Origin: Myxococcus hansupus
GTDB taxonomy: Bacteria > Myxococcota > Myxococcia > Myxococcales > Myxococcaceae
Direction: 5' to 3'
Assembly: GCF_000280925.3 (NCBI RefSeq)
Contig: NZ_CP012109.1
Coordinates: 3,802,501 to 3,866,500 of the forward strand
DNA: 64,000 nt
Below the pieces are notes generated by a model. That model was given only the letters and a program-made list of their open reading frames with translations, was not told the DNA's origin and did not search any database. How positions within the stretch are numbered: position 1 is the first letter of the stretch; each line of letters starts with the position of its first letter. Position numbers and translations under genes: made by a program. Shown piece by piece: positions 2-63,380 of this stretch.

Positions 2-553
2 CGCACCCATTCGCAGGAGCACCCGCTTCTCGCATGGGACCAGTCCGGTATGGCCTTCCGCAAAAGGAAGCCGGTGGACGTACACGCGCCCGTGAAGTTG
101 AAGCTGGCTGAACCGGTGCCACCCCATCCCGTGATGGCGGACCACCACGCTTTGCCGGCGCCCGTGGTGTCCACCCGCCTCATGGAGGTGTTCGCCAACG
201 CCAACCTGCATGGGGTCCAACTCGTTCCAGCGGACGTCCACGCGGGCAACTACGTCCTGCGGTACTGGCTGCTCCACGTCTGGCGGGCGATTGACTGCCT
301 CGACAGGGAGCGCTCGGTGTTTCAGGAGACAGCGACCGGACGGGTACTGATCGCGGTGGACCGCCTCGAGCTGGATACGGGGGTACTCGACGCCGTTCCG
401 CTCGAGGAGCGTTTGGCGTTTCGCCTGGAGGGGGCCGCCATTTTCCTCTTCCACCTCAGCGTGGTGAACCGAGCCCTTTCGCTGACGCCGCCTCCCGTAG
501 GCCTGCGCTTCATCCCCGTGGCGGAGTGGGGCGACGCGTCGGCGTTCCGCTGA
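2..553 (+). CDS. Imm11 (DUF1629)-like protein, 5' end outside the window
   Basis: The reading frame is open to the left edge, so the first in-frame ATG at 50 is probably internal and this is the C-terminal part of a longer protein. From ATG 50 there are 167 residues. The segment with VQLVPADV, then YWLLHVW, CLDRERS and a final GLRFIPVAEW follows the layout of the myxobacterial Imm11/DUF1629 family (MXAN_0049 type), cytosolic proteins predicted to be immunity proteins of polymorphic toxins. No toxin gene is visible downstream; the partner, if any, would lie upstream. The family call rests on the pattern of conserved blocks and is moderate. The role as immunity protein is inference. Confidence 0.6.
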   Translation, partial: RTHSQEHPLLAWDQSGMAFRKRKPVDVHAPVKLKLAEPVPPHPVMADHHALPAPVVSTRLMEVFANANLHGVQLVPADVHAGNYVLRYWLLHVWRAIDCLDRERSVFQETATGRVLIAVDRLELDTGVLDAVPLEERLAFRLEGAAIFLFHLSVVNRALSLTPPPVGLRFIPVAEWGDASAFR

Positions 554-734
554 CGAACGCAGCCGTTTGGACCGCAGTGCCTTGGAGATGGCTGCCCTGA
601 AGCGAGCCCGATGCCGGACGGCGCTCGCGGATGTTCGCCAGCATGTGCGCTCGTGCCTTCGAGGAGGACCCGGAGGGCCCGGCGCCTCGGCATACCGATG
701 GCCAGGGGAGGGGACGGTCCGTTAGGGTCTCGAC

Positions 735-1700
735 ATGGTGGTGAGGATCGCCTCGTGGGCGGAACCGGTGCGGCATCCCGAGTTGGGACGGCTCAGGGCG
801 TGGCACCTCGTATGTCCCTCGCAAGCGCTTCGTCCCGGGCAGGTGATGCGCTGGAGCCTGGGGGCACGCGAGTTGGTGCTCTTCCGGGGACAGAGCGGCG
901 CGGTGCATGCGTTGTCAGCGCATTGCGCGCACATGGGAGCGCATCTGGGGGGCGGCACCGTCGTGGGCGACCAACTGCGCTGCCCCCTGCATCATTGGCG
1001 CTTCGAAGGGAGCGGCGCCTGCGCGCGCAGCGGGCGTCCCGGGCAGCGGGCGTTTCCGGTGGTGGAGCGGCACGGCGCCATCCTCGTCTTCAACGGGCCG
1101 GTGGTCCTCTTCCCGCCGCCACGCGTGGGCGGAGATGACTGGCGATGGGGGCTCGCGCCCGCGTTCCGTGTGCGCTGCGACTGGCTCCCGGTGGTGGCGA
1201 ACGCATTCGACCTCGAGCACCTGCGCACAGTGCATCACCGCGCGTTGCGAGACGAGCCCATCGTTGAGCGCGAGGACCCCTTCACGCTGCGCGTCCGCTA
1301 CACGTCCCGCGTCACGGGGACGGGGATGAGCGACCGGGTGATGAAGTTCCTGTCGGGCGACCACATCCGCGTCACCTTGACGCTGCATGGCGGCACGCTC
1401 CTGTCCGTGGAGAGCGACCTGGGCCGCACGCGCAGCGCGTTGATGGCGGGACTCCAGCAGACCCCCGAGGGCCTCTTCGTCCGGCTCGCCTTCGCCACGC
1501 GGCGCTGCCGTATTCCCGGCGTGGAGGTGTTGAAGCTCGCGGTGGCGCGGTGGCTCTTCACGTCGTTCCTTCGGAGGGACCTCTCCGTGCTGGACGGCAT
1601 GCGCTTCAACCGGGCGGGGGCGGCGGAGGACCCGTTGTTGTTGCATGTGCTCGACTTCACCTCCAACCTTCCGGAGGCCGTTGATGACGAGCGCGCGTGA
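735..1700 (+). CDS. Rieske [2Fe-2S] non-heme iron oxygenase
   Basis: A 321-residue ring-hydroxylating-type oxygenase alpha subunit. The Rieske cluster ligands are visible as C64-x-H66 and C83-xx-H86 (CAHMG and CPLHHW). A mononuclear iron site follows at D159, H162 and H167 in NAFDLEHLRTVHH. This two-site layout is that of oxygenases that hydroxylate, demethylate or desaturate a hydrophobic substrate using electrons from a separate reductase. No ferredoxin or reductase gene is adjacent. The gene ends inside the start of the desaturase-like gene (17-bp overlap), and that gene overlaps the PAP2-prenyl synthase fusion, so the three should be co-translated and act in one pathway. The substrate is unknown; a terpenoid or lipid is inferred from the neighbours. 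Start ATG 735 has only a weak upstream GGG. Confidence 0.85.
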   Translation: MVVRIASWAEPVRHPELGRLRAWHLVCPSQALRPGQVMRWSLGARELVLFRGQSGAVHALSAHCAHMGAHLGGGTVVGDQLRCPLHHWRFEGSGACARSGRPGQRAFPVVERHGAILVFNGPVVLFPPPRVGGDDWRWGLAPAFRVRCDWLPVVANAFDLEHLRTVHHRALRDEPIVEREDPFTLRVRYTSRVTGTGMSDRVMKFLSGDHIRVTLTLHGGTLLSVESDLGRTRSALMAGLQQTPEGLFVRLAFATRRCRIPGVEVLKLAVARWLFTSFLRRDLSVLDGMRFNRAGAAEDPLLLHVLDFTSNLPEAVDDERA

Positions 1701-57553: not shown

Positions 57554-58165
57554 ATGAGCCCGACGAAGAAAGCCCCCGCCAAGAAGGCGCCCGCCGCCGA
57601 GCTGCCCATCCTGGCCTTCGCCACCCCCGCGGATGTGTCCGCCTGGATGAAGAAGCACCACGCCTCCGAGCGTGGCTTCTGGCTCAAGCTCGCGAAGAAG
57701 GGCTCCGGCATCGACTCCGTCACCTATGCGGAGGCGCTCGACGTGGCGCTCGAATGGGGCTGGATTGACGGCCAGAAGCAGTCCTTCGACGACACCGCGT
57801 GGCTCCAGAAGTTCACGCCTCGGGGCCCGCGGAGCGTCTGGTCCAAGGTCAACTGCGCCAAGGTGGAAGCGCTCATCGCCGCGGGCCGGATGAAGCCGTC
57901 TGGAATGGCGGTCGTGGAGAAGGCCCGCGAGGACGGCCGCTGGGACGCCGCCTACGAATCCCAGAGCAAGGCCACCGTGCCGGAGGACCTGGCGCAGGCC
58001 CTGGCCGCCAATGCGAGGGCCGCCGAGTTCTTCTCCACGCTCAACGCGGCCAATCGCTACGCCATCCTGTGGCGCGTGCACACCGCGAAGAAGGCGGAGA
58101 CGCGGGCGCGGCGCATCGAGCAGTTCGTGGAGATGCTCGCCCGGCACGAGTCGCTTCACGCCTGA
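57554..58165 (+). CDS. YdeI/OmdA-like bacteriocin-protection protein
   Basis: A 203-residue protein from ATG 57554. FATPADVSAWMKKHHASERGFWLKLAKKG, then VTYAEALDVALEWGWIDGQKQ, FTPRGPRSVWSKVNCAKVEALIAAGRMKPSG and a C-terminal RARRIEQFVEMLARHE follow the YdeI-like family (often annotated bacteriocin-protection or OmdA). The N-terminus is Lys/Ala-rich. It is a small cytosolic protein; the protective role in the family name is thinly supported. It follows the membrane protein gene. Confidence 0.85.
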   Translation: MSPTKKAPAKKAPAAELPILAFATPADVSAWMKKHHASERGFWLKLAKKGSGIDSVTYAEALDVALEWGWIDGQKQSFDDTAWLQKFTPRGPRSVWSKVNCAKVEALIAAGRMKPSGMAVVEKAREDGRWDAAYESQSKATVPEDLAQALAANARAAEFFSTLNAANRYAILWRVHTAKKAETRARRIEQFVEMLARHESLHA

Positions 58166-58231
58166 GCCGGGTAGGGCTGGGTACGCCCCATGGCGACAGG
58201 CGTGGGTGTCGGTCCTCCGCGCGGTGGGCCC

Positions 58232-58265
58232 GCCGGAAATCCGGCACCCCCGCCGGATGCCCGGC
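58232..58265. promoter_or_regulatory. Two 14-bp dyads 20 bp apart, candidate sigma-54 enhancer
   Basis: GCCGGAAATCCGGC (58232-58245) and GCCGGATGCCCGGC (58252-58265) share GCCGGANNNCCGGC and start exactly 20 bp apart, i.e. on one face of the helix. They lie about 110-140 bp upstream of the sigma-54 promoter, the usual place for dimer sites of an NtrC-type activator. The alternative is terminator hairpins for the YdeI-like gene: a T tract (58281-58286) follows 15 bp after the second dyad. Confidence 0.55.
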
Positions 58266-58372
58266 GGCCGCGTCTTCATCTTTTTTCACGAGAAGGCGGC
58301 GTGGGGGGCGTGGCACGGTGCGTTTCGTCTCCAGTTGGGAGGAGACCTGCCCCGGAGGGTGGCCGGTTCCGG

Positions 58373-58388
58373 TGGCACTACCATTGCT
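58373..58388 (+). promoter_or_regulatory. Sigma-54 (-24/-12) promoter
   Basis: TGGCAC-N5-TTGCT at 58373-58388 is a perfect match to the -24/-12 consensus, with the GG and GC dinucleotides 10 bases apart. Transcription should start near 58399. Two dyads for an activator lie upstream, and the downstream genes include an NtrC-type activator with a GAFTGA loop, so the operon is likely autoregulated. Confidence 0.8.
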
Positions 58389-58439
58389 GAGTGCTGAGCA
58401 CGTTGAATCGCACAGCGCACGCCAAGGGGAAGGCACTCC

Positions 58440-58613
58440 ATGTTGCTCGACATGTACCTGTACTACGGTCTGCCGCTGCGGCCCGCGCCGCGTCGCGCCG
58501 CGACTGCCGCCACCCCTGTGAGGGAGGCTTCGAAGGAACGGACAGCCCGCAAGCCGGAGCGTGCGACTCAACTCCAACTCATCGAGGGAGGGCCCGCGGC
58601 GGACGCTCCCTGA
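58440..58613 (+). CDS. Small 57-residue protein, first gene of the sigma-54 operon
   Basis: An open frame of 57 codons starting at ATG 58440, about 40 bp after the predicted transcription start and right behind AAGGGGAAGG, a strong ribosome binding site. It begins MLLDMYLYYGLPLRPAPRR, continues with an Ala/Arg/Lys-rich middle and ends QLQLIEGGPAADAP. It has no known motif, signal peptide or membrane segment. The kinase gene starts 29 bp downstream of its stop. The ORF is short enough to be missed by length filters; promoter and ribosome binding site are the reasons to believe it. Function unknown; a regulator or target of the pair is speculation. Confidence 0.55.
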   Translation: MLLDMYLYYGLPLRPAPRRAATAATPVREASKERTARKPERATQLQLIEGGPAADAP

Positions 58614-58642
58614 GCAGGGCGGTTTCAGCGGAAGAGGCCGAC

Positions 58643-59980
58643 ATGGACTCACGGACCCAGGCCATCGTCGACGACCTCAAGCTGAAGCACTTCGGTCCGT
58701 TGTTCGGCCGGTTGATTCGCTACCGCCTGGGGATTCCTGTCGTGTTGTTGGTCTCCTCGGTGCTCGTCGCGCTCCTGGATGGGGCGCCCTGGCGTTGTGC
58801 CTTCATGGGATTGGTGGGGGTGGGGGCCTTCGCGCTCTTCTTCCATGAGTTCCGCCGCTACGAACGCGACGGCTTCAGCGCCCGGTCCATCCACGCCAAC
58901 CTCTGGGCAGGGCAGCTCATCCTCCAGTGCGTCATCGTGGGGACGGGTGGCATCGCGAGTCCCATCCTGGCCGCCGCGCTGCCCTTGGGCTTCCTGTCGA
59001 GCCTCGCGGCGTCACGCGAAGAGCGGCGGTGGCTGCTGGGCATGCAACTGGCGTGGCTGCTGCTGGTGTCCATCGTCCAGGTCTCCGGGCTGGTGCCCGG
59101 CCTGCCGCTGCGCTTCATGGGCACCCCCTCGTCCGCGCTGCTCGCCACTGGCGCGGTGGTGACGGCCCTGGCGCTCGTCGTCAGCACCGCCGCGGGCAGC
59201 GCCGTCCGGACCACGTTCGACAACATGATGACCGAGGTGTTCGCGGGCCGGGACGAGCTGCTCGCCACGCACCGCTCCTATGCCGGTGCCCTGGAGGCCA
59301 TGTCCGGTGAAATCGCCCACGAGCTGAAGAACCCACTGGCCACCGTGAAGGGGCTCACCCAGCTCATGGCCCGGGAAGCGGGGCGTCCACAGCCCGCCGA
59401 GCGCCTGCAGGTGCTCGCCGGAGAGGTGGTCCGGATGCAGGGCATCCTCGAGGAGTTCCTCAACTTCACCCGGCCCCTGGTGCCGTTGACGGTCAGCCGC
59501 GTGGACCTGGGGGAGCTGTGTGACGAAGCGTTGGTGCTGCACGAAGGGCTCGCGGCGGGGCAGGGGGTGCGGCTCGAACGCGTGGGCGCCGCGCACGTGG
59601 ACGCGGTGTGCGACCCACGCAAGGTGAAGCAAGTCATGATGAACCTGCTCCACAACGCCATCGAGGCGAGCCCGGCGCGAGGCCGCGTGACGGTGTCGGT
59701 GAGCGCGCCCCGGCCCGGCGAGGCCCACGTCGCCGTGCGCGACCATGGCCTGGGACTGGCGCTGGAGCTGGGCGGACGCGCCTTCGACGCGGGCGTCACG
59801 ACCAAGGCGAAGGGTTCGGGCCTGGGACTGACGGTGGCCCGCGCCCTCGCGCGGCAGCACGGAGGGGACGTCACGTTGGCGAACGCGTCGGGCGGGGGTT
59901 GCGAGGCGGTGATGATTCTCCCGCGAGAGCTGCCGGCGGAAGTTCTGAGCCCGGTGCACGGAGTCGCCCATGTGGGATGA
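58643..59980 (+). CDS. Sensor histidine kinase
   Basis: A 445-residue membrane histidine kinase from ATG 58643 (GAAGAGG upstream). About six hydrophobic helices occupy residues 30-190 with little periplasmic sequence, so sensing is probably in or at the membrane. The H box is SGEIAHELKNPLATVKG with H226. The HATPase has the N box MMNLLHNAIEASP, G1 DHGLGL and G2 GSGLGLTVARALARQHGG. The phosphoryl acceptor should be the NtrC-type regulator whose gene overlaps by 11 bp. HxxExKNPL is the NtrB/AtoS-like sort that partners sigma-54 activators. Confidence 0.9.
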   Translation: MDSRTQAIVDDLKLKHFGPLFGRLIRYRLGIPVVLLVSSVLVALLDGAPWRCAFMGLVGVGAFALFFHEFRRYERDGFSARSIHANLWAGQLILQCVIVGTGGIASPILAAALPLGFLSSLAASREERRWLLGMQLAWLLLVSIVQVSGLVPGLPLRFMGTPSSALLATGAVVTALALVVSTAAGSAVRTTFDNMMTEVFAGRDELLATHRSYAGALEAMSGEIAHELKNPLATVKGLTQLMAREAGRPQPAERLQVLAGEVVRMQGILEEFLNFTRPLVPLTVSRVDLGELCDEALVLHEGLAAGQGVRLERVGAAHVDAVCDPRKVKQVMMNLLHNAIEASPARGRVTVSVSAPRPGEAHVAVRDHGLGLALELGGRAFDAGVTTKAKGSGLGLTVARALARQHGGDVTLANASGGGCEAVMILPRELPAEVLSPVHGVAHVG

Positions 59981-61373
59981 GACGGCCGCGCCGGCCGCGC
60001 GCATCCTGGTGGTGGATGACGACGCGGGCGTCCGCTTCACGCTGCGGGAGCTGCTTCGGAGCCTGCCCGGCGTGGAGGTGAATGACGCGGTGGATGGCGA
60101 GGACGCGCTGGAGAAGCTGGCGGAGCGTCCCTGCGACCTCATCATCTCCGACCTGCGCATGCCTCGGATGGACGGGATGGCGCTGGTGCGGCGGCTGAGC
60201 ACGTTCCCCACCGCGCCGCGGGTCATCGTCATCACCGCGCATGGCTCGGAGCGCTTCGCGGTGGAGGCCATGAAGGCGGGGGCCTACGACTACTTCCGCA
60301 AGCCCTTCGACGTGGACGAGCTGCTGGCCGTGGTCACCCGCGCGCTGGAGTCGGTGCGGCTCCGCGAGGAGAACGCGCGGCTGTCCGGCGAGCTGAACCT
60401 GTCCCGCTCCATGGTGTTCAGCTCCGAGCCCATGGCCCGGCTCGCGCAGCTCGTGCAGCTCGCGGGCTCGCGCGACGTCACGGTGCTCATCTGCGGTGAG
60501 AGCGGTACGGGCAAGGAGCGGGTGGCGGACGCGCTCGTCCGGGCCTCGCCGCGCGCGGACCGGCCCTTCCTGCGCTTCAACTGCGCGGCCCTCACCGAGG
60601 AGCTGGCGGAGGCCGAGCTGTTCGGTCACGCCAAGGGGGCCTTCACGGGCGCGCACCGCACGCGCCTGGGGCTCTTCCGGGAGGCGGACGGAGGCACGCT
60701 GCTGTTGGACGAGGTGGGGGAGCTGGCGCCCACGCTCCAGGCCCGGCTGCTGCGGGTCCTCCAGGAAGGCGAGGTCCGCCCGGTGGGGGAGGACCGACCG
60801 GTGAAGGTGGACGTGCGCATCATCGCCGCCACCCACCGGGATTTGCGGCGCCTGGCGTCGGAAGGCGCGTTCCGGGAGGATCTCTTCTACCGGCTCAACG
60901 TGGTGCAGCTCCGGGTGCCGCCGCTGCGAGAGCGCCCCGAGGACATCCCCGTGCTGGCGCGCGTGTTCCTGGGCCGGTTCATCGACCGGTTCCACACCGG
61001 CCCGCTGAAGACGCCCGACGGCTTCTTCGAACGACTGCGCGCCCTGCCGTGGCCCGGCAATGTGCGCGAACTGGAGAACACGTTGGAGAGCCTGGTGGCC
61101 CTTTCGAGCGGCGGCGTGCTGAACCTGGAGCAACTGCCCTCGGCCGGCCCCGTGGCGGAGACCGCCCGGACCGCCGCGCCGCAAGAGGCCCCCCTGGGCG
61201 CGGGGCTCAAGGAGCGCGTGGAGGCCTACGAGCGGGGGCTCGTCCTGGACGCGCTGCGCATGGCGGCTGGGAACCGCAGTGAAGCGGCGCGGCGGCTGGG
61301 CATTGGACGGGCCACCCTGCATGACAAGCTGCGCAAGTACGGGCTGGACGACGGAGGGGAAGAGCGGATGTGA
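59970..61373 (+). CDS. NtrC-type sigma-54-dependent response regulator
   Basis: A 467-residue three-domain activator. Receiver domain 10-125 with the phospho-acceptor D61 (IISDLRMPRMDG) and acidic pocket VVDDD. AAA+ domain about 150-385 with Walker A GESGTGKE (about 174), the sigma-54 contact loop GAFTGA (about 224), LLLDEVGEL and the R-finger region FREDLFYRLNV. The C-terminal Fis-like helix-turn-helix reads GNRSEAARRLGIGRATLHDKL. Hence it can open sigma-54 promoters, including the one at 58373. The gene overlaps the kinase gene by 11 bp and should be phosphorylated by it. Confidence 0.95.
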   Translation: MWDETAAPAARILVVDDDAGVRFTLRELLRSLPGVEVNDAVDGEDALEKLAERPCDLIISDLRMPRMDGMALVRRLSTFPTAPRVIVITAHGSERFAVEAMKAGAYDYFRKPFDVDELLAVVTRALESVRLREENARLSGELNLSRSMVFSSEPMARLAQLVQLAGSRDVTVLICGESGTGKERVADALVRASPRADRPFLRFNCAALTEELAEAELFGHAKGAFTGAHRTRLGLFREADGGTLLLDEVGELAPTLQARLLRVLQEGEVRPVGEDRPVKVDVRIIAATHRDLRRLASEGAFREDLFYRLNVVQLRVPPLRERPEDIPVLARVFLGRFIDRFHTGPLKTPDGFFERLRALPWPGNVRELENTLESLVALSSGGVLNLEQLPSAGPVAETARTAAPQEAPLGAGLKERVEAYERGLVLDALRMAAGNRSEAARRLGIGRATLHDKLRKYGLDDGGEERM

Positions 61374-61442: not shown

Positions 61443-63380
61443 ATGCATCCCGTGTCTCGACGCCTCGCGGCAGTCCTCCTGGCCTGCGCCACGGGCTCGG
61501 CGCAGGCCCAGTCCACCGCGCAGGCCCCGAAGCGTCCCGCAGGCCCGCCCCAAGAGCGGGTGGAGCGCGTCCGGTCGCAGTTCACCAAGTACGAGTACCG
61601 CATCCCCATGCGCGACGGAACGCGCCTCTTCACGTCTGTCTACGTGCCCGCGGATGCCTCGCCCGGGAAGCGTTACCCCATCCTGATGGTGCGCACGCCC
61701 TACACCGTCGCGCCGTATGGCGTGGACCGGTATCCGCAAGCGCTGGGGCCCACCGAGGCGTTCGAGAAGGAGGGCTTCATCTTCGCCTTCCAGGACGTGC
61801 GCGGCCGCCACATGTCGGAGGGCGAGTTCGTCAACGTCCGGCCCCACAAGGCGAAGAAGGCCGGCCCGAAGGACTTCGACGAGAGCACGGACACGTACGA
61901 CACCATCGAGTGGTTGGTGAAGCGCGTGGCGAACAACAACGGCCGCGTGGGGCAGTGGGGGATTTCGTACCCCGGCTTCTACGCGTCCGCGGGCGCCATC
62001 GACTCGCACCCGGCGCTCAAGGCGGTGTCCCCGCAGGCGCCCATCGCCGACTGGTTCTGGGACGACATGCACCGCAATGGTGCCTTCAACCTGTCGCTCG
62101 CGTTCGGCTTCTTCTCGACGTTCGGCAAGCCCCGGCCCAAGCCCACGGACAGCGAGGACTGGCAGCGCTTCGACCATGGCACGCCGGACGGCTACCAGTT
62201 CTTCCTGGACCTGGGCCCGCTGAGCAACGCGGACTCGAAGTACTTCAAGGGGGACGTCGCGTTCTGGAAGGAGGTCGCGGCGCATCCCAACTACGACGCG
62301 TTCTGGCAGGCGCGGAACCTGCTGCCACACCTGAAGAACATCAAGGCGGCCGTGCTCACGGTGGGCGGCTGGTACGACACCGAGGACCTGTACGGCCCGC
62401 TGCAGACGTACGCGGCCATCGAGAAGCAGAACCCGGGCATCTCCAACACCCTCATCATGGGCCCCTGGCCCCACGGCGGCTGGCAGCGCGGCGACGGTGA
62501 GTCCCTGGGCGACGCGGACTTCGGCTTCGCCACCAGCATGGCCTACCAGACGCTGGCCCTGGACTTCTTCAAGCACCACCTCAAGGGCGGCCCGAAGCCG
62601 GACGTGCCCGAGGCGATGGTGTTCGAGACGGGCGCCAACCGCTGGCGCCGCTTCGACACCTGGCCGCCCAAGGGCCTTCGCCAGACGAAGCTCTACTTCC
62701 AGCCCAAGGGCGGGCTGTCCACCCAGGCCCCCAAGGCGGCCGGCGCGGCCTTCGCCGAGTACGTGAGCGACCCGGACAAGCCCGTGCCGTACACGCAGGA
62801 GCTCACCACGGGCTGGAGCAAGAGCTACATGACGGAGGACCAGCGCTTCGCCGCGCGTCGGCCCGACGTGCTGGTGTTCGAGACCGAGCCCCTGGAGCAG
62901 GACCTCACCGTGGCCGGCCCGCTGGAGGCGGAGCTGTGGGTGTCCACCACGGGCACGGACGCGGACTGGGTGGTGAAGCTGGTGGACGTCAACCCGGGCA
63001 AGGTGCGCGGCTTTCGCAAGGGGGACGAGGAGAAGGGCGTGAAGAACCGCGGACATCAGCAGACGCTGGTGCGCGGGGAGCCCTTCCGCGGCCGGTTCCG
63101 CGACAGCTTCAGCGAGCCCAAGCCCTTCAAGGCCGGCGAGGTGACGAAGGTGCGCTTCGTCATCAACGACGTGTTCCACACCTTCCAGCGCGGCCACCGC
63201 GTGATGATTCAGGTCCAGTCGAGCTGGTTCCCGTTCATCGACCGCAATCCCCAGACGTACGTGCCCAACATCTTCGAGGCGAAGGAGGAGCACTTCATCC
63301 GCGCCTTCCACCGCGTCTATCACTCGGCCGCGAATCCGAGCTTCGTCCAGGTGGGCGTGCTGCCCGCGCTGGACGAGTAG
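61443..63380 (+). CDS. Exported CocE/NonD hydrolase, alpha-amino-acid ester hydrolase-like
   Basis: A 645-residue secreted or periplasmic serine hydrolase with a signal peptide (SAQAQ). The X-Pro dipeptidyl-peptidase/CocE fold is seen in FQDVRGR, the nucleophile S175 in WGISYPG, the catalytic aspartate in GGWYDTEDLYGP, the His in GPWPHGGW, and a jelly-roll domain in the last 220 residues. The acidic pair E-D after WYDT and DDMHRNGAF match the carboxylate cluster that binds the alpha-amino group in alpha-amino-acid ester hydrolases (beta-lactam acylases). So a substrate with a free alpha-amino group, such as an aminoacyl ester or amide, is likely. The gene follows the NtrC-type gene by 69 bp and could be controlled by it. 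Confidence 0.82.
   Translation: MHPVSRRLAAVLLACATGSAQAQSTAQAPKRPAGPPQERVERVRSQFTKYEYRIPMRDGTRLFTSVYVPADASPGKRYPILMVRTPYTVAPYGVDRYPQALGPTEAFEKEGFIFAFQDVRGRHMSEGEFVNVRPHKAKKAGPKDFDESTDTYDTIEWLVKRVANNNGRVGQWGISYPGFYASAGAIDSHPALKAVSPQAPIADWFWDDMHRNGAFNLSLAFGFFSTFGKPRPKPTDSEDWQRFDHGTPDGYQFFLDLGPLSNADSKYFKGDVAFWKEVAAHPNYDAFWQARNLLPHLKNIKAAVLTVGGWYDTEDLYGPLQTYAAIEKQNPGISNTLIMGPWPHGGWQRGDGESLGDADFGFATSMAYQTLALDFFKHHLKGGPKPDVPEAMVFETGANRWRRFDTWPPKGLRQTKLYFQPKGGLSTQAPKAAGAAFAEYVSDPDKPVPYTQELTTGWSKSYMTEDQRFAARRPDVLVFETEPLEQDLTVAGPLEAELWVSTTGTDADWVVKLVDVNPGKVRGFRKGDEEKGVKNRGHQQTLVRGEPFRGRFRDSFSEPKPFKAGEVTKVRFVINDVFHTFQRGHRVMIQVQSSWFPFIDRNPQTYVPNIFEAKEEHFIRAFHRVYHSAANPSFVQVGVLPALDE

Follow-up and report, generated by a model that had tools for sequence, protein, structure and literature searches.

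A small-protein gene at the head of a sigma-54 two-component operon in Myxococcus hansupus and its relatives

Gene layout at the locus

The window analyzed here is a stretch of 64,000 nucleotides of the Myxococcus hansupus genome. Near its end, a small open reading frame (ORF) of 57 amino acids, running from ATG to TGA, is followed on the same strand by genes for a membrane histidine kinase and an NtrC-type response regulator (Table 1). The initial annotation had described this ORF as the first gene of a sigma-54 two-component operon, and the layout agrees, with the promoter upstream and the two regulatory genes downstream. We could also confirm the details it gave: the frame has a purine-rich Shine-Dalgarno (SD)-like sequence, begins about 41 nt downstream of the predicted transcription start (near 58399), and ends with a gap of 29 nt before the kinase ATG (58643). 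Its statement that the product carries no known domain held up as well, in that searches of Pfam, NCBIfam, and PDB sequences returned no match for the small protein at the thresholds used. No paralogs were found in the same genome (the best other hits had E values of 0.25 and 1.0), and among the matches listed in the open-access literature no title concerned this protein.

TABLE 1 Features of the small-protein locus (positions in the window)
Feature	Position	Strand	Remarks
Palindrome GCCGGAAATCCGGC	58232..58245	.	Probable response-regulator binding site
Second palindrome GCCGGATGCCCGGC	58252..58265	.	20 bp further; probable response-regulator binding site
Sigma-54 promoter (-24/-12) TGGCACTACCATTGCT	58373..58388	+	Found at 32 of the 33 homologous loci
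SD-like, purine-rich sequence AAGGGGAAGG	58424..58433	+	Similar in relatives
Small-protein gene, 57 codons plus stop	58440..58613	+	N-terminal MLLDMYLYYGLPLRP, variable linker, C-terminal QLQLIEGG
First 14 codons of the small gene	58440..58481	+	Strong constraint (pN/pS); predicted helix at residues 2 to 9 (AlphaFold)
Membrane histidine kinase	58643..59980	+	HisKA and HATPase_c; TGGIASP motif in membrane part
NtrC-type response regulator	59970..61373	+	Receiver, sigma-54 activator AAA+, Fis-type HTH; overlaps kinase gene
Peptidase_S15/PepX_C (CocE-like) hydrolase	61443..63380	+	Downstream; absent from some homologous loci in the stretches examined

The bare ORF is unremarkable in the window, where 153 ATG-started ORFs of 40 to 100 amino acids were counted on both strands, 45 of them with an SD-like motif; an antisense frame over the same stretch is free of stops in 27 of 32 homologs. 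As judged from the sequences, it is conservation at the codon level that raises this ORF above chance. We regard it as a genuine small-protein gene and infer that it is translated.

The kinase membrane domain has three to five hydrophobic spans in a crude scan of five kinases. The layout is similar to that of RegB/PrrB-type redox kinases, an assignment that we rejected on a score of 64.9 bits for NF033792 against a cutoff of 350. RegB/PrrB-type kinases carry a GGxxNPF heptapeptide; all 30 aligned kinases of our set have the motif GGxxSP, with Ser in place of the Asn.

The distance between the small ORF and the kinase was 26 to 32 nt in 13 of the 15 loci measured and 15 nt in the other two. In 11 genomes, 1.3 to 2.6 kb lie between the two genes, so calling the small ORF a kinase leader would be too simple. 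The genes inserted here (five loci: L084, L087, L088, L089, and L092) encode, as judged by eye, an MBL-fold hydrolase and in some cases also TetR-type and SDR-type proteins. In these loci the small gene retains the sigma-54 promoter, and the inserted genes would be extra outputs of that promoter. Because both the downstream hydrolase and the inserted genes are inconstant, the small protein is the sole nonregulatory gene at every locus, within the stretches examined. The record BNCN01000004.1 (L129), titled Comamonas sp. KCTC 72670, carries the locus with a kinase at 93% identity; the genome that appears to correspond to it, G024, is placed in the genus of the window, so the title looks wrong.

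Conservation and anatomy of the small protein

A profile of the small protein (A3) was run on 145 genomes of the order (E ≤ 0.001) and matched 34 of them. One match with three stops (G096) was dropped, leaving 33 genomes, and among the 145 the ORF was found in the family only. Orthologs of the kinase (E ≤ 1e-110) were present in 31 of the 96 family genomes, and every one of these 31 carries the small ORF. The remaining two ORF-bearing genomes, G021 and G016, have kept the ORF and have the kinase and regulator deleted. In the neighborhoods taken from 30 genomes, a pattern search recovered the frame in 29 (all 27 examined genomes of the genus and two of another genus); the 30th, G040, has a divergent homolog that was seen by eye and by the profile.

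We computed pN/pS in 16 close pairs as well as across groups. Among the close pairs, pN/pS was 0.13 over codons 1 to 14 (13 synonymous and 6 nonsynonymous changes), 0.64 for the linker, 0.48 for the C terminus, and 0.55 for the whole ORF. Across groups, the corresponding values were 0.25, 0.99 (near neutral), 0.65, and 0.79. This is purifying selection that depends on codon position, as in-frame coding would leave. Further, the protein takes 17 distinct lengths among 32 homologs with the C-terminal motif in frame in 30, and the lengths of the leader (28 loci) and of the spacer (15 loci) are spread over all three phases. Length changes within the ORF therefore preserve the frame outside Citreicoccus (2 genomes), a result that is favored by the homologs having been found by their frame. 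In Citreicoccus the C-terminal motif is absent and a neighboring frame still reads DGVP, which suggests a frameshift at the C terminus. Lost frames or frequent frameshifts in relatives had been named as grounds for discarding the gene; what we found is a frame intact in 33 genomes, with a C terminus that looks frameshifted in this one lineage.

The small protein consists of a hydrophobic N terminus, a freely evolving linker, and a C terminus of the type LRVIEGGRxG. The N terminus contains LDMYL or LDMFL in 29 homologs, among which D4, M5, L7, and L11 are invariant. In the genus it reads MLLDMYL(F/Y)(F/Y)xLP with few exceptions, and in Citreicoccus it reads MLDMFLFYGLAL. The four distant homologs (G040, G127, G128, and G129) have other hydrophobic sequence at this end, for instance MLTMLLFLYSPF. 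The linker is variable in length and rich in A, P, G, R, K, and S. Most lineages have a C terminus of the form L-(R/T)-V-(I/L/V)-(E/D)-G-G; of the four distant homologs, three retain (E/V)GGRAG(V/M)P.

The first 14 residues have a mean hydropathy of +0.56 to +1.64 (32 homologs), and with its roughly 13 residues the hydrophobic stretch is on the short side for crossing a membrane. The net charge ranges from +2 to +5 in the group of the window and from +12 to +19 outside it. AlphaFold gave a poor model, in which residues 2 to 9 form the only helix (mean pLDDT, 62; 83 over the first ten residues). By eye, there is no signal peptide of the exporter type. The initial annotation had proposed a signaling or target peptide. 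A real gene heading the operon supports this in part, with a signaling or target role as a candidate; in the sense of a secreted pheromone the proposal fares worse, as a hydrophobic N terminus followed by a mostly cationic tail fits better with a membrane-associated intracellular small protein.

Promoter, upstream palindromes, and genomes without the two-component genes

The sigma-54 site is a perfect TGGCAC-N5-TTGCT and the sole match with at most one mismatch in the window. When the window was shuffled, 84 of 100 shuffles yielded at least one match at this threshold. Since chance matches are this common, the argument rests on the conservation of the promoter: the core lies 59 to 72 nt upstream of the ATG in 32 of 33 loci and is lost in G016.

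We scanned the 450 bp upstream for palindromes with the pattern G[CT]CGG-N3-5-CCG[AG]C (type, approximately GCCGG-N4-CCGGC). They were present at 30 of the 33 loci, with two at 26 loci and one at four (those of the four distant homologs). The three loci with no palindrome were those of G012, G021, and G016. For G012, the contig ends 260 bp upstream, and a matching palindrome pair was located on another contig, 34 bp from its end. G021 and G016 are the two genomes without the regulator; palindromes that are absent where the regulator was lost are what one would expect if the regulator binds them, although on two losses only. The upstream palindromes are thus probably the binding sites of the regulator. 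The 14-bp motif is not enriched in the genome of the window (37 hits at 31 positions, versus 68 for the backward control), and wider pattern searches also gave no enrichment over the backward control (61 versus 89; in G000, 9 versus 7). Two places in this genome have the motif in tandem. Only the promoter described here combines the tandem motif with a sigma-54 site that matches at 10 or more of 11 positions within 520 bp; the next best has 9 of 11.

The other tandem palindrome (G000:C1:5035484; L250, about 1283 to 1316) has the same design; it follows the stop codon of a coiled-coil gene and stands about 540 bp upstream of a MoxR-type gene (gene names assigned by eye). At least one motif was found in the scanned stretch of 18 of 23 genomes; those without one were G016, G021, G020, G022, and G040, of which G022 has what looks by eye like a degenerate copy. 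In G127 the copy lies about 200 to 330 bp off the usual place. In the group nearest to the window the motif is present in seven of nine genomes, the two without it being again G016 and G021. Close to the MoxR-type gene, all 21 of the 23 genomes that were scanned there, G021 among them, have a weak sigma-54-like site (8 of 11). The regulator may thus have another target at this site, and we have softened the notion of the palindromes as a unique, single-target site on account of this second conserved tandem site.

A conserved block (58274 to 58322) lies between the palindromes and the sigma-54 site. It contains TTCATxCTTxTTCAC in 24 of 33 loci, with a one-base variant in the window, and about 35 bp past this motif TGGCAC(C/G)(T/G)TGC is found in 25 of 33 loci. 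The block is kept at least partly in both genomes that lack the two-component genes; since part of it survives there, it may be a second promoter or the site of another factor.

In these two genomes, no kinase match was found at an E value of 1e-60, and remnants of the last codons of the regulator remain. Over its first 20 codons, the small gene of G021 shows 0 nonsynonymous and 4 to 5 synonymous differences from five relatives, and 1 to 2 amino acid changes relative to G000 and G024. The regulator relic of G021 has two amino acid changes in HDKLRKYGLD, a segment that in 28 intact regulator genes varies at one place, in G040 only. A crude Poisson estimate from the relic gives about 0.02 for 20 unchanged codons, a value that rests on two changes and is not to be pressed. 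The last 11 codons of the G021 gene differ from the same five relatives by 4 to 5 amino acids and 2 to 3 synonymous changes, yet the resulting C terminus, VIEGGRAGVP, is one that also occurs in other lineages. The G016 assembly is a draft with about 1,010 contigs, and the small gene sits on one of 6 kb. Its promoter is lost, and Ser replaces a Pro kept by the other 26 genomes of the genus, which fits a decaying small ORF. Only a short piece of the downstream S15-type hydrolase, seemingly shortened internally, is present there (L097, about 358 to 756, reverse strand).

Possible roles of the small protein

The reading that we favor, tentatively, is that the small protein comes from a real gene, is made as the invariable product of a sigma-54 two-component operon that activates itself, and acts as the output of the system on an envelope or membrane target. 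A trigger on the membrane kinase would cause the NtrC-type regulator to bind the tandem palindromes (58232 to 58265) and to open the sigma-54 promoter, and the mRNA would then give the small protein first, followed by more kinase and regulator. The small protein would probably be held at the inner membrane through its N terminus, a short hydrophobic helix; its linker would form a disordered tether, and its C-terminal segment of the LRVIEGG type would dock a partner. From there the small protein would act on an envelope or membrane target, with feedback on the kinase as a close second. In favor of this reading are the frame kept in 33 genomes, the constraint on its first codons, its presence in all 31 genomes with the kinase ortholog, the palindromes missing where the regulator was lost, the single tandem motif with a strong sigma-54 site in the genome, the first 20 codons of G021 with no amino acid difference from five relatives, and its place as the only nonregulatory gene seen at every locus in the stretches examined. 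Against it stand the shortness of the hydrophobic stretch, the poor structural model, the C-terminal changes in G021 and its few N-terminal ones relative to G000 and G024, the signs of decay in G016, the lack of motif enrichment, the site near the MoxR-type gene, and the loss of the C-terminal motif in Citreicoccus.

A bolder possibility, less likely than not, is that the locus is a nearly private two-component system that makes one tiny protein as its own effector with a kinase-independent job. The tandem palindromes with a strong sigma-54 promoter, which occur once in the genome and in front of this gene, speak for such a system. Such a job is suggested by G021, which lacks sensor and regulator and keeps an unchanged N terminus and an ancestral-looking C terminus. 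The private system is made slightly less likely by the second tandem palindrome, since the gene that follows it has a weak sigma-54-like site nearby.

A possible alternative to the output role, which we take seriously, is an accessory or feedback protein that would bind the membrane domain of the kinase and tune its kinase/phosphatase balance, by analogy with MgrB-PhoQ or SaePQ-SaeS. The strict co-occurrence with this kinase ortholog, the shared and presumably self-activated operon, the hydrophobic N terminus, and the several hydrophobic spans of the kinase membrane domain would all suit such a partner. However, G021 and G016 retained the ORF after deletion of kinase and regulator, even if G016 seems to be decaying. 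Moreover, a two-component system that strongly targeted only its own genes and a feedback peptide would lack an output, unless the second palindrome or unseen sites are targets.

It is improbable that the ORF is a translational leader, in which translation rather than the product controls the kinase through coupling, attenuation, or ribosome stalling. Its first position, its close spacing to the kinase in most measured loci, and low synonymous change in the first 14 codons (pS of 0.093, versus 0.264 in the linker, in close pairs) are what a leader might show, but the long distance to the kinase in 11 genomes is not. The native start region shows no excess of structure over synonymous or shuffled versions of it (mean z of +0.30 and +0.39; 29 loci), and Rfam gave 0 matches at E values up to 1 in 58150 to 58700. 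RNAalifold, applied to 11 of the 29 loci (those on the plus strand), gave a hint of a hairpin over the SD sequence and start codon with almost no covariation. We rejected this hairpin because native sequences from 29 loci showed no added stability relative to synonymous or dinucleotide-shuffled versions and because the pairs hardly vary. Neither a conserved structure nor steady adjacency to a controlled gene, as a leader or cis-acting RNA would have, was found. The SecM arrest motif is RAGP, and the C-terminal GGRAGVP of several lineages resembles it. RAG-V/I-P is not retained in other lineages, and we rejected an arrest peptide as the shared mechanism because these end in ADIR, AGLR, and similar sequences. 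Finally, a chance ORF in GC-rich leader DNA, for which the many comparable ORFs in the window and the open antisense frame could be cited, is very unlikely in view of purifying selection at the codon level, length changes that keep the frame, and 33 genomes matching the profile.

Whether as output or as feedback protein, the small protein may work like small proteins made within two-component regulons, such as MgrB and SaePQ. MgrB (PMC8404706) inhibits PhoQ and is a membrane protein of 47 amino acids that belongs to the PhoP regulon; it is small, made within its own two-component regulon, and associated with a membrane kinase, as our protein probably is. Our protein differs in its hydrophobic part of about 13 residues and its mostly cationic, disordered tail, and its gene heads the kinase operon under sigma-54. 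The likeness is one of working, as the family searches gave no match to our protein. SaePQ activates the phosphatase of SaeS, according to a title cited in PMC12239555. SaeP and SaeQ are likewise accessory genes in a regulator-kinase operon (saePQRS); these are two Staphylococcus aureus proteins, and the comparison is by operon layout (PMC12239555, in part).

Two systems of M. xanthus share features with the operon. NmpR of NmpRSTU is, in excerpts of PMC11841059, PMC6211767, and PMC12753109, an NtrC-type regulator with paired palindromes upstream of its own sigma-54 operon and autoregulation. Its site is GCGCA-N5-TGCGC, whereas ours is GCCGG-N4-CCGGC, NmpS is a receiver-kinase hybrid, and the excerpts describe no such leader ORF. 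Nla28S/Nla28 is a kinase and NtrC-type regulator pair with a self-regulated sigma-54 operon, which, unlike ours, is described as a two-gene operon; its promoter is TGGAGCG-N4-CTGCT and its half-site CT(C/G)CG(C/G)AG (excerpts of PMC9765219). We rejected an assignment of the locus to Nla28 or NmpRSTU, as the binding sites, promoter, or operon makeup differ from those given in these excerpts.

Small proteins encoded in sensor operons tend to escape notice, although some of them determine how the sensor behaves. The protein described here makes a good candidate for a previously unstudied small regulator or output. The species in which its gene adjoins the kinase, lies apart from it, or occurs without it form a ready-made test set. 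In addition, the palindromes predict specific binding sites for an NtrC-type pair, and this pair matches neither Nla28 nor NmpRSTU of M. xanthus as these appear in the excerpts cited.
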